DNA from: Deltaproteobacteria bacterium
GTDB taxonomy: Bacteria; Myxococcota; JACPTQ01
Direction: 5' to 3'
Length of the DNA stretch: 38,543 bases
Assembly: GCA_016192705.1 (NCBI GenBank)
Contig: JACPTQ010000064.1
Coordinates: forward strand, 1-38,543
Below the pieces are notes generated by a model. The model made no database searches and had not been told where the DNA came from. It worked only from the letters and a program-made list of their open reading frames with translations. A program made the translations under genes and the position numbers. This document shows, piece after piece, positions 19,952 to 38,543 of the stretch (position 1 is its first letter; every line of letters begins with the position of its first letter).

Positions 19952-22426
19952 ATGTCGCCGTCGCGAACGCCCATTCTTCCCGCGCAAATCGGCCCGTTCG
20001 AGGAGGTCGAGCCACTCGCCCCTTGCCCTGCCGCGATTCTCGCGCGCGCCCGCGATCCGGTGCCGCGACTCGTTAAGGTCTATCGGATTGAGCCGGTTCA
20101 GTGGTTCGAGTCGGCGCGATTTACACCGCTCCCTTGTTCGATGGGCGAGGGCGCTGTGCGCGTGGTCGATAACCGTGTCACGCAATCGTGGGCGATGCGC
20201 GCGGGCGAACCCGTTGCGCGGCTTCGTCGGGTGGAGCCGCCACCGCTCGGCGTCGCGCTCGCGCTCGTCGTTGAGATGACGCAAATCGCGCGAGCCGTGA
20301 TCGCAGAAGCCCCCGACCGACCGGGCCTCCTCCACGTTTCGAATCTCTGGCTGGGCGCCGATGCGCGGCTCACGGTGATCGACTCGGTTCTCGTCGATTG
20401 GGAGCTCACGAGCGCGGGGCCGAATACTTGGGATATACCGACGACGGGAAAGGGTGACGCCGCGATTGCGGCCGTCATAAGTCGGAACGCGGCTTGGCTC
20501 ACCGCTGGCGATACACGTATTTGCTCCTTGTTGAATGCGACGTCGCTCGACGCGCTCGACCGCGCCGCCTTGCACCTCTTGGGACTCGATGCGGCGTCCG
20601 CCCGTGCGCGACTCGAGGCTTGGTTGGCAAAACGACGCGGCGCCTCCGCACCCGTAGCCGCACCGGAACCCGCATCCGCAGAAGATTTCAACGCCAAGGC
20701 GCAAAGGAGCAAAGACGCAGGGAATGAGACCTCTTCCCTTGGCGCCTCCGCGCCTTTGCGTCAAATTCCCGCGCCCGTAACGCGAACGACGAGTTACCGC
20801 CCGTCGCCTGCGACCGTTGGACTTGCGATCCTCCTTGCCGCCACGGCCTTGGCCGGTTTCTTTATTTACGATGCGCTGTCGCCTGATCTTCCAACCCCCA
20901 CAGCAATAGCAGCCGACCCATCGCCCAACGCAGGCGAGCCGCCTCAACCACCACCTGCGGTAGCGACCGACGCAGCCGCCGCATCGCCACCATCCCCGAC
21001 CAATCCGCCGCCACCGCGACGCGAACCACGAATCGCTGTCATTCGCTTCCGAAATCTCACAGGCGATCTCCGATGGTCGTGGTGCGAAGACGGCTTCCCC
21101 GAACTCGTCGCGACGGCCATCGCCGAGACCAACCCAGCTTTCGTCGTCGAGACAACGACTCTGCGCGCGGCTCTCGCCAAGGCCGGGCTCGCTGCTCGCG
21201 CGATTGATGACGCTTCGGTGCTTGCCGCAGGCCGCAGCCACAACGCAACGCACGCTGTCACAGGGTCGGTCGCGCGCGACGCAAAGGGATTCTTACTCAC
21301 GGTGAACCTCACGGCGCTGCGTGGTCCCACGCAAAGAGAAGAGTGGCGGATTCCCATGGGTGACGCGAAAGACGCCATTCAAGCCGCGCCCACCGTCGCG
21401 CGCAACGTCGTAGCCCGGGTCGCACCGGCCGCTCCCGCATCCGCGTCTGCGCCCGCGCCCGCTCCCGCAACCGCTTCCGCTCCCGCACAACTGACGCCTC
21501 TCCTTTCAACCAACCCCGACGCGCTCGTTGATTTCATTCGGGGTCGCGACGCCCTCGCGCGCCTCGACGTTACCGCAGCCCTAAGTAATTTCGAGCGCGC
21601 CGTCACGAAAGATCCGGCGTTCGCATCGGCCCACGTCGGTCTTGCCGACGCCCTGGTTACGCCCTGGCCGTTTAACGAGCGCGACCGCGCCGAGCGCGCT
21701 TTGGCATACGCACGCGACGCCGAAAAGCGCTTGCTGGCCCGCGACCGCGCGCGACGCGCGGAGTTGACGCGCCTCCTCGCAACCCCTGACGCCCCGGGGC
21801 CACGCGACGTCGCAACCGGGAAACTGTTGCCGGCACACCCGCTCGCGCTCCTCGCAGCTGGCGAACACGCGCGACGCCGCGGTGACTTCACGGCTGCCCT
21901 CTCGGCGTGGCGCATCGCTGCACGAACGCTCGCACCGGCACGCGCGTTCGCGGCCAATCTTGCGCTGCGAGCGGTCGATCCCCACCATGCGCTTCGAATT
22001 CTCGCGCTTCGTGCGCCCGGCGAGCCAGAGACGTTTCCTGAGGCACAGTTCGCCATCCTGGCGACGATCATGGCAAACGATTTTTCGTTAGCCCGAAAGC
22101 GCCTCCGCGCGCTCGCGCACGACGCCGCTCGCCCAGCGGCTGCACGCGCGTGGGCTGCAAGTGCCGCCGCTGAACTTGAAATTCTACTCGCAAAAAAAAA
22201 TGTGCCAACCGCCGCGCCGTTGCCGGCGCCCGACAACGTAACGGTGTCGTACGCATTCACGGCTCCGCGCGCGCTGCTCGCAACCGTGAAACCGCTCATC
22301 GCACGCGGCGAAGCGGCCAAAGCAAAAGCCGCGCTCGAACGCGTCGTCTCGGCGTGGGAGGGCTCAAAAGGTCCGGCCGCACGTGACGCCCGCGCCCTCC
22401 TAAAGAAATTAGTGCGTCGCCCTTAA
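19952..22426 (+). CDS. Pseudokinase-TM-TolB-like-TPR protein
   Basis: 824 residues. Residues about 12-225 keep a faint kinase pattern: LVKVYRIEP where the VAIK strand is expected, and HVSNLWL plus TVID (128-144) where HRDLKPxN and DFG are expected. The catalytic Asp and the glycine loop are missing, so no activity is predicted. A linker (230-285) holds a repeat-derived peptide (about 245-271). One membrane span lies at 287-308, then a Pro/Ala-rich segment. Next comes a TolB/CsgG-like domain (about 358-488, IAVIRFRNLTGD), an Ala/Pro/Ser stretch (490-513) and TPR-like helices (from about 525). Kinase-TM-TolB-TPR proteins are known in several phyla; here the kinase part appears dead. Probably an envelope-spanning scaffold. 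The 3' end overlaps the convergent cheA-like gene by 18 bp. Confidence 0.8.
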   Translation: MSPSRTPILPAQIGPFEEVEPLAPCPAAILARARDPVPRLVKVYRIEPVQWFESARFTPLPCSMGEGAVRVVDNRVTQSWAMRAGEPVARLRRVEPPPLGVALALVVEMTQIARAVIAEAPDRPGLLHVSNLWLGADARLTVIDSVLVDWELTSAGPNTWDIPTTGKGDAAIAAVISRNAAWLTAGDTRICSLLNATSLDALDRAALHLLGLDAASARARLEAWLAKRRGASAPVAAPEPASAEDFNAKAQRSKDAGNETSSLGASAPLRQIPAPVTRTTSYRPSPATVGLAILLAATALAGFFIYDALSPDLPTPTAIAADPSPNAGEPPQPPPAVATDAAAASPPSPTNPPPPRREPRIAVIRFRNLTGDLRWSWCEDGFPELVATAIAETNPAFVVETTTLRAALAKAGLAARAIDDASVLAAGRSHNATHAVTGSVARDAKGFLLTVNLTALRGPTQREEWRIPMGDAKDAIQAAPTVARNVVARVAPAAPASASAPAPAPATASAPAQLTPLLSTNPDALVDFIRGRDALARLDVTAALSNFERAVTKDPAFASAHVGLADALVTPWPFNERDRAERALAYARDAEKRLLARDRARRAELTRLLATPDAPGPRDVATGKLLPAHPLALLAAGEHARRRGDFTAALSAWRIAARTLAPARAFAANLALRAVDPHHALRILALRAPGEPETFPEAQFAILATIMANDFSLARKRLRALAHDAARPAAARAWAASAAAELEILLAKKNVPTAAPLPAPDNVTVSYAFTAPRALLATVKPLIARGEAAKAKAALERVVSAWEGSKGPAARDARALLKKLVRRP
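20685..20766 (+). repeat. In-frame 82-bp palindromic repeat, copy 1
   Basis: Begins ATTTCAACGCCAAGGCGC and ends GCGCCTTTGCGTCAAAT; the ends are near-perfect inverted repeats. The second copy at 30447-30528 has the same length, about 70 of 82 identical bases and an identical right half. Here it is read through in frame, coding for a peptide that contains SSLGASAPLRQI in the linker between the kinase-like domain and the membrane span. Confidence 0.88.
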
Positions 22427-30025: not shown

Positions 30026-32164
30026 GTGGCTAAGATTCTCGTTGTCGAAGACGATCGGGCAACGCTGCGCCTGTTCGTCGATGCGCTTTCCGCGGAGGGA
30101 TACTCCGTCCTTCCAGAACGCGATGGCGAAACCGCGCTTCGGACCTTCGATCGCGAGGCGCCCGAACTGATCATCACCGATGTGCTGGTCCCCGGGCTAA
30201 ACGGCTTTCAAATCGCTGAGCGGGTGCGAATCACGGACCACGGCGAACAAACACCTATCATCATGGTCAGCGGAATCTATAAATCGGCGGAGCATCGACG
30301 CGAGGCAACCGTCCGTTATCGAATCGCCGACTACCTCGTAAAACCCGTTCGCGTCGACGCGCTTTACGCGGCTGTGAAATCGGCGCTGGCTCAGGCTGAA
30401 GCCGGCAAGCGCAGCGCCCGGGCGGCCGCGCCAGTATCCGCCAAGGATTTCAACGCAGAGGCGCAAAGCCGCAAAGATGCAACGCCAGAAGCCTCTTCCC
30501 TTGGCGCCTCCGCGCCTTTGCGTCAAATCTCCGCTTCCGCGGCCACGGCCGCTCCGTTCGCTCTCACCGGCACCCTCGAAAAAACCCCGTTCGCCGAACT
30601 TTTCCAGCCGATCTATCGCGCCCGCGCGACGGGAGCGCTTTTTGTCATGACAGCGCAGGTCAAAAAAATCGTCTACGTCTCAAAAGGCTATCCGACCATC
30701 GTTCGCTCGAACATTCTCGGCGAATGCCTCGGGCGCATCCTCGTCACCGAGCGTTTCATCACGCAGCCCGAGTGCGACAAATCGCTTGACCTCGTCCGCG
30801 CAACGGGGCGACTCCAGGGCGCCATCCTCCTCGAGATGGGCGTCATGTCACCGCAAAACCTGAAGTGGGCCCTCGAAAAGCAGCTCGAAGTGAAGCTGTT
30901 CGACATTTTCTCGTGGGAGCGCGGCCAATATCAGTACAACGCGCGCTCCGACGTTCCAACCGCCGGCATCTCGATCGACCGCTCGCCCGCGAACCTCATT
31001 TTCGACGGCGTACGTCGCGCCATGTCGCCCGCGCGAATCGTCGCGCTCCTCATGCCCCGCTTCGATCTGTACCCCGTCCGCGTCGCCGAGCCGCTCATGC
31101 AGTTTCAAGAGGTTGAGATGAGCGACGCCGATCGCGCGTTTCTCGGGCGCCTCGACGGACGCAAAAACGTTCGCCGACTCCTCGCGGAGCACGAGCTCGG
31201 CCCCGAACAAACACCGATCATCCTCTACTCCCTCTTGGCATCCGGCATTATCGAATGTCGAGACCGCGTCTCAGTCGCGGCGCCATCGGCAACTCCGACG
31301 TCCGATACCGCCACCCCGATCGAACTCGAACCGGTTCCGCTTGAGGCGGCGCCAACCGAACCCGAGCAACCGCAAGTCGCGAATCGTCCCTCAGGTGCGT
31401 CGGCCGTCTCGAGCGGGAAAAGCGCAGCCGATTCGACGCGCGCCGGGAAAACTGAACGCGTCGCGCTGCTCGAGTTTCTCGATGCGGCCTCGAAAAAAGA
31501 CCACTTCCAACTGTTCGGGATTCCACGCGATTTCATGGCGAGCGATCTCCGGCGCTCCTATCTCAAGCTCGCGCGCGACCACCACCCCGATCGCTTCGCC
31601 GGCTTTCCAGATGACGTCCGCGACCTTGCGGCGCGTGCCTTTGCCGTTATCTCCGACGCCCTCGCAACGCTTGAGAACCCCCAAAAGCGCGCCGACTACA
31701 TCGCAACGCTCACAACGGGCAAAAGCGCCGCCGCGGTCGAAGAGCAGGTCAAAGCCGTTCTCCAAGCCGAAGTGGAGTTTCAGCGCGGAGAGGCGCTCCT
31801 TCGGTCAAAGCGGTTTCGCGAGGCGATCGAAGCGTTTCGCGCCGCAGTCAAGCTGTACCCGGATGAAGGCGAGCATCACGCGATGCTCGGGTGGGCTATC
31901 TTTCAAGCAAATCCGCGCGATATCCGCGCAGCGCACGAGGCGCAAGGGTATTTGAAGCGCGGGCTTCAGCTCAACCCGAAGATCGAGCGCGCGTACGTTT
32001 TTCTCGGGCACATCTTCAAAGCGATGGAAAACCGGCTTGCCGCCGAAGCGATGTTCGAGAAAAGTTTGACGCTGAACCCGGATAACATTGAAGCACAACG
32101 GGAACTGAGACTATTAACCACCAGCCGCGGAAGTGCAGGACCTCTGCCGCGACGGCGAAGATAG
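30026..32164 (+). CDS. Response regulator fused to DUF4388, J domain and TPRs
   Basis: 712 residues. Receiver domain 3-122 with phospho-acceptor D52 and K106. Next is a linker with a repeat-derived peptide (141-169). A DUF4388-like region (about 176-330) contains FAELFQPIYRARATGALFV, then helical, winged-helix-like repeats to about 412. A Pro/Glu-rich linker follows (about 415-470). A J domain (about 492-560) has HPD at 520-522 in DHHPDRF, and TPR helices run from about 580 to 700. The J domain should stimulate a DnaK-type chaperone, and TPRs bind partners. Together this suggests a phosphorylation-controlled adaptor, perhaps for assembly of a motility machine. GTG is the only start that keeps the receiver complete. 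It is divergent from the chemosensory operon and so is a candidate extra output protein for it. ilvE follows after 8 bp. Confidence 0.9.
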   Translation: MAKILVVEDDRATLRLFVDALSAEGYSVLPERDGETALRTFDREAPELIITDVLVPGLNGFQIAERVRITDHGEQTPIIMVSGIYKSAEHRREATVRYRIADYLVKPVRVDALYAAVKSALAQAEAGKRSARAAAPVSAKDFNAEAQSRKDATPEASSLGASAPLRQISASAATAAPFALTGTLEKTPFAELFQPIYRARATGALFVMTAQVKKIVYVSKGYPTIVRSNILGECLGRILVTERFITQPECDKSLDLVRATGRLQGAILLEMGVMSPQNLKWALEKQLEVKLFDIFSWERGQYQYNARSDVPTAGISIDRSPANLIFDGVRRAMSPARIVALLMPRFDLYPVRVAEPLMQFQEVEMSDADRAFLGRLDGRKNVRRLLAEHELGPEQTPIILYSLLASGIIECRDRVSVAAPSATPTSDTATPIELEPVPLEAAPTEPEQPQVANRPSGASAVSSGKSAADSTRAGKTERVALLEFLDAASKKDHFQLFGIPRDFMASDLRRSYLKLARDHHPDRFAGFPDDVRDLAARAFAVISDALATLENPQKRADYIATLTTGKSAAAVEEQVKAVLQAEVEFQRGEALLRSKRFREAIEAFRAAVKLYPDEGEHHAMLGWAIFQANPRDIRAAHEAQGYLKRGLQLNPKIERAYVFLGHIFKAMENRLAAEAMFEKSLTLNPDNIEAQRELRLLTTSRGSAGPLPRRRR
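30447..30528 (+). repeat. In-frame 82-bp palindromic repeat, copy 2
   Basis: Same element as at 20685-20766: same length, same strand and same reading frame, with the last 37 or so bases identical. It encodes a peptide with DFNA near the start and SSLGASAPLRQI at the end, placed between the receiver and DUF4388 domains. On the opposite strand it reads TQRRGGAKG, which creates false open frames. Confidence 0.88.
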
Positions 32165-34167: not shown

Positions 34168-34296
34168 ACAGGTTGCTCAAAAACGTCCAGATGCAAGGCA
34201 GGCGCGAAAAGCCGCGAGCTGACGCTGTACTCAGATGTACGCGGAGGCGAGCGGCGACGCGCCAACGCAGCAGATGGGCGTTTTTCGGCAACCTGT
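34168..34296. repeat. 129-bp palindromic element beside tRNA-Asp
   Basis: Starts ACAGGTTGCTCAAAAACG and ends CGTTTTTCGGCAACCTGT; these 18-base ends are complementary at 16 positions. Inside, GGCGCG and CGCGCC arms and a central GTAC-TCAGAT-GTAC hairpin allow one long cruciform or stem-loop. A related copy is at 38426. From memory, this GGTTGCTGAAAAA family is frequent in delta-proteobacterial genomes. It may be a MITE-like or REP-like element. It ends 6 bp before the tRNA. Confidence 0.82.
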
Positions 34297-38400: not shown

Positions 38401-38543
38401 CAGGCTGCTGAAAAAGTCGGTTTTGCAGGTTGCTGAAAAATGTCCAGATGCAAGGCAGGCGCGGAAAGCCGCGACCGGACGCTGTACTCAGAGGTACGCG
38501 GTAGGGAGCGGCGACGCGCCAACGCCATCGAGACGAAGCGATA
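38401..38543. repeat. Second copy of the GCTGAAAAA palindromic element, cut by window end
   Basis: CAGGCTGCTGAAAAAG at 38401-38416 is followed at 38426 by a fuller copy that matches 34168-34280 closely: CAGGTTGCTGAAAAA, CCAGATGCAAGGCAGGCGCG, and a GTACTCAGAGGTAC hairpin tip. The match holds up to GCGCCAACGC near 38525. After that it diverges, so the right arm is missing or altered here. It lies directly after the helicase stop codon and may act as its terminator. Confidence 0.75.

Follow-up and report, generated by a model that had tools for sequence, protein, structure and literature searches.

The stretch of DNA analysed (the window, 38,543 nucleotides) contains the same short palindrome twice, each time inside a gene, which raises the question of what this sequence is and whether it forms part of two unrelated proteins. 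The 82-bp core of copy 1 is at 20685..20766 on the + strand and is translated as DFNAKAQRSKDAGNETSSLGASAPLRQI; that of copy 2 is at 30447..30528, also on the + strand, and is translated as DFNAEAQSRKDATPEASSLGASAPLRQI. With its conserved ends (CCGCAGAAG...TTCCCGC), copy 1 occupies 20676..20772 (+) and matched positions 1-97 of the family model described below with 105.2 bits, while copy 2 with its ends occupies 30438..30534 (+) and matched with 93.4 bits. Including these ends the element measures about 88-98 bp. The preliminary description of this locus had reported two palindromes alike in strand, length and frame, agreeing at about 70 of 82 bases and identical in their right halves. Our measurements agreed, as each copy is in-frame within a long ORF, 70/82 bases are equal and the final 37 are identical. 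The inverted repeat is imperfect in both copies, but both folded far better than dinucleotide shuffles (z -3.6 for copy 1 and -3.3 for copy 2), and the arm pattern occurred twice in the window versus 0.00 times expected by chance. Immediately 5' of copy 1 (20647..20684, +) there is a Pro/Ala-coding, YCCGCN-like flank, identified by direct reading and from the flank consensus of all copies.

Host gene 1 (19952..22426, +) encodes 824 aa; the element covers about aa 243-274, and a hydrophobic stretch comes after it near aa 290-310. The label "pseudokinase-TolB" given to it earlier was unsupported: neither Pfam (E up to 10) nor a PDB sequence search identified a kinase or TolB domain. The only matches of this protein were to TPR, near aa 530-570, and to a peptide-modification cyclase family, both of them weak. 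Host gene 2 (30026..32164, +; 712 aa) has the domains previously assigned to it and in that order, namely REC (4-118), DUF4388 (181-332), DnaJ (492-558) and TPR, with the element at 139-170.

Searches of the whole genome (5.21 Mb in 88 contigs; estimated contamination 0.82%) indicated that the two copies belong to a large family. A nucleotide search gave 40 matches, and a sequence model built from 40 copies identified 88 places, of which about 85 scored clearly above noise. The absence of any other genomic copy, which would have refuted the idea of an inserted element, can thus be set aside. Copy 1 had matches 96-99% identical elsewhere in the genome, and four copies in different genes, the window's included, had 98-100% identity across the 82 bp. 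Coding on each side of a copy was judged by codon usage learned from the long ORFs of the genome. At 61 of the 88 places there was coding sequence on both sides and the frame was open through the element; 16 copies were at gene edges and 11 had no coding context.

The reading frame of the in-gene copies was close to uniform. Forty-two of the 61 were read in one forward frame (DFNAKAQR..APLRQI), 17 in one reverse frame (QRKDAE..LALNP), and only two in other frames, one each in two frames. The same two frames (forward DFNAKAQR.., reverse QRKDAE..) accounted for 11 of the gene-edge copies. Seen from the gene, two of the three phases were in use. Were every copy equally likely to use each of the frames open in it, uniformity of this degree would have a probability of ~1e-31. 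This figure was estimated after the fact and rests on a lower limit for the open frames, because unused frames are free to gain stops; the near symmetry of the element also means that its six frames are not entirely independent.

The proteins that carry the element are unrelated to one another. They include MTHFR, XerC, UvrA, Der, D-Ala-D-Ala ligase, xanthine dehydrogenase and ApbE, as well as sulfatases, MFS and DctM transporters, Ser/Thr kinases and others. Solved homologues, among them those of Der, D-Ala ligase and UvrA, lack the segment, and in full-length conserved enzymes the Pfam and PDB matches continue on both sides of it. The preliminary description had proposed a comparison with orthologues lacking the insertion, and empty sites were indeed found in relatives of MTHFR, XerC and xanthine dehydrogenase. 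In MTHFR, relatives have 4 aa where the host has 27 aa (LALRGDPPAGD-RTFV-PAPDGFAHAS in a same-phylum orthologue versus LALRGDAPAGD-[27 aa]-PAPDDFAHAS in the host). XerC has a clean 29-residue gain relative to same-phylum proteins, and a same-phylum relative of xanthine dehydrogenase lacks the element and an Ala/Gly-rich tract together. With no close relative to compare, filled and empty sites could be contrasted only at phylum distance. The idea that the palindrome occupies interdomain linkers held for host 2, in which it separates the receiver and DUF4388 domains, but not for the whole family, as copies are found in linkers or loops and some of the latter are inside single domains (MTHFR, D-Ala ligase, UvrA). 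In the GTPase Der (L105 2195-3691; C84:33999) a long charged linker between the two GTPase domains contains a degenerate, partial copy. A conserved protein domain was rejected as the identity of the segment, based on the orthologues without it and a pN/pS of 0.80.

Based on these data, we consider it highly probable that the palindrome is a dispersed, non-autonomous element present at about 85 places and translated in-frame as tolerated loops or linkers. Its translation, the working state of the proteins and the tolerance are inferred, as no protein or RNA data were available. The element would have spread to these places often together with (YCCGCN)n hexamer repeats. Each orientation has a stop-free phase in this lineage, and those in-gene insertions that survived keep the frame. 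Copies landing in surface loops or linkers would add roughly 23-52 residues to a host protein that stays full length. The proteins are presumed to be made with the peptide and to work, the element being tolerated rather than useful.

The preliminary description had inferred a mobile or formerly mobile element. The number of places, the absence from homologues and signs of recent copying all support this, whereas mobility by a transposase was not demonstrated. An identical run of about 98 bases, sharply bounded on both sides, is common to the copies in a sulfatase gene and an SCO1 gene; as the genes are unrelated, this pair indicates recent copying. No target duplication was visible in 86 flank pairs, although hexamer repeats would hide a short one. 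The Y1 transposase family (PF01797) had no match in this genome, while the same family was found in 5 of 14 control genomes, and mobilisation by a RAYT of the genome itself was rejected on that basis. No mobilising enzyme was found in the genome. An Rfam search gave only chance microRNA matches far below threshold. None of 12 conserved pairs had a compensatory change, so there was no support for selection on RNA structure.

Several hosts had two copies. Two same-frame copies in one gene were seen in L046 (C46:73339, 73642), L047 (C38:15266, 15482), L094 (C86:20256, 20439) and L100 (C44:28472, 29121). The copy pairs of L046 and of L047 share private variants, and this likeness within genes suggests that local duplication or conversion may have operated as well.

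How the element is copied has not been shown; we infer two possible routes, one through a transposase supplied in trans and the other through recombination or template switching at hexamer repeats. A more specific version of the latter holds that most of the spread went through such recombination or switching between (YCCGCN)n repeats, in which case the Pro/Ala phase of the repeat would fix both orientation and frame and no target duplication would arise. The genome contains 747 overlapping matches to four consecutive YCCGCN units versus 1 in a reversed control, and tracts of four units were found within 100 bp of 18/86 copies versus 11/1402 background windows (p 2e-16). The flank consensus of all copies is hexameric, and the 98-bp identical pair from the sulfatase and SCO1 genes takes in two hexamer units. 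The hexamer equals two codons, which read Pro-Ala or, from the opposite strand, Ala-Gly, and events guided by such tracts would therefore keep the frame. The MTHFR site, at which one relative has the PAGD and PAPD flanks as well and the replacement concerns just four residues, and the joint absence of tract and element in the xanthine dehydrogenase relative, also fit this route. However, the majority of copies lack a full tract within 100 bp, XerC has its clean gain with no tract, and the tracts may instead expand after insertion. We regard this route as a tentative proposal, less likely than not. Long (YCCGCN)n tracts code for Pro/Ala/Ser stretches (e.g., C8:7094-7254), and many have no adjoining palindrome.

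The element was also compared with palindromes in other genomes. The strict arm pattern was absent from all of the 194 other genomes of the same phylum. Among named genomes, at least 110 stretches have the arm pattern, and these span Gammaproteobacteria, Polyangia, Geobacterales, Verrucomicrobia, Acidobacteria, Chloroflexi, Chlamydiae, Bacteroidetes, Latescibacterota, Methanosarcinales and others. Single-arm counts reached 135 in Sorangium cellulosum and 76 in Minicystis rosea; the number of elements can be no higher than this and may be lower, since one palindrome may contribute a count for each of its arms. Palindromes of the ACGCAAAGGCGC type (in Sorangium, Minicystis, Geomonas, Chlamydiae, Verrucomicrobia and others), which are apparently unnamed and reach high copy numbers in many phyla, match the element in their arms, and from this sequence match they and the element likely belong to the same broad family. 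A search of the accessible literature for the arm sequences found no paper printing them.

Unlike the element studied here, the sampled copies of these look-alikes were mostly outside genes. With the same classifier and small samples, 4/21 copies in Minicystis were in genes versus 58% of random windows (p 0.0005), 1/10 in Sorangium versus 64% (p 0.0006), and 0/10 in Chlamydiae. In our genome there was no avoidance of genes (61/88 versus 290/400 random windows, or 72%; p 0.55). The look-alike palindromes sampled in other phyla thus mostly avoid genes, within the limits of these small samples. The Minicystis and Sorangium loci, about 147 kb in all, contained no four-unit YCCGCN tract. It is conceivable, but we think it rather unlikely, that a family mostly intergenic across many phyla became a genome-wide linker-insertion module in this one lineage, moving along with the hexamer repeat, with the two-codon hexamer period keeping every insertion in-frame and tract recombination thereby creating interdomain linkers without a transposase. 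On an Oscillochloris MAG contig (L178), about 20 arms of this palindrome type are crowded into 7.5 kb, and some of them form tandem direct repeats. Apparent in-gene copies on that contig were discarded, as the codon model was largely self-trained there and the ORFs gave no support.

An alternative reading is that selection on its amino acids maintains the peptide, which would then serve as a linker or binding motif with a function of its own. The strict frame choice is not fully explained by stops alone, because other frames are also open. One of these encodes TQRRGGAKG, the complementary reading that had been described as a familiar source of spurious hypothetical proteins; it is indeed an open frame, but is hardly used here. 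The use of one frame per orientation, the scarcity of cysteine in the used frames (0.12 per peptide versus 1.09 in the other open frames) and the hosts with two copies each favour a functional peptide. The used frames also have lower hydrophobic peaks than the other open frames. Hydropathy alone was rejected as the cause of the choice, as the used frame was the most hydrophilic open one in only 21/58 copies. Against a functional peptide, the pN/pS of the used frame (0.80) is near the values of the two other forward frames (0.91 and 0.83), and beyond its open frame the peptide is hardly conserved. In addition, forward and reverse copies encode different peptides, and the hosts, from MTHFR to UvrA, share no common pathway and have homologues without the peptide. 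We consider selection for the peptide itself improbable. That the element-bearing genes are decaying or mis-assembled, with frames open by accident, is scarcely credible: the assembly consists of 88 contigs and a frame is indeed broken by a few copies (e.g., C3:13532), but conserved matches span both sides in full-length enzymes, coding-type codon usage flanks 61 copies on both sides, and the estimated contamination is below one percent.

The reading that we prefer, a tolerated palindromic element translated in-frame, has precedents. The Rickettsia palindromic elements (RPE; Ogata et al. 2000, 2002) are described in later papers (PMC2229807, PMC10969869) as 105-146-bp palindromes fused in-frame in 19 or more protein genes; their in-gene number is put at 19 reading frames, or at nearly half of a set of 44 copies that belong to several families. 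The likeness suggested in the preliminary description extends to how the two behave, as both are short stem-loop palindromes (about 100 bp), in-frame in many unrelated conserved genes, absent from homologues and apparently tolerated. The element here is shorter (82-98 bp), its approximately 60 in-gene copies come from one family, it is tied to (YCCGCN)n repeats, and its host is inferred to be not Rickettsia but a 5.2-Mb genome of another phylum, near the myxobacteria, as many genomes of that phylum measure 9-13 Mb. The NCBIfam library contains RPE models. Among the NCBIfam matches listed for eight host proteins (E up to 1; in two cases the best 25 matches), none was to these models. With no such match listed and a different host, membership of the RPE was not shown. 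Palindromic elements in Wolbachia are also in-frame inside genes and without premature stops (PMC4224334), as are coding palindromes of Methanocaldococcus jannaschii (cited in PMC2996958); these share that placement with the element here, in hosts that are unrelated. REP/RAYT elements and MITEs are likewise short, dispersed, palindromic and non-autonomous, but here there is no Y1 transposase, target duplication was not seen, and most copies are inside genes.

Coding palindromes have so far been known mainly from Rickettsia, then from Wolbachia and one archaeon; the present family adds another phylum, in a deep, poorly sampled bacterial lineage, and about 60 in-gene copies. A measurable frame choice, together with counterparts that avoid genes, provides a way to ask what lets repeats enter coding DNA, and the same comparison could ask whether such insertions supply protein linkers. 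These findings are also a warning that such peptides in annotated proteins may be repeat insertions and not domains.

The window also contains a second dispersed repeat, of 100 bp (CAGGTTGCTCAAAAACGTCCAGATGCAAGGC...), at 34169-34268 and 38426-38525. Its two window copies are 91% identical and apparently intergenic, and the repeat had 33 matches in the genome.
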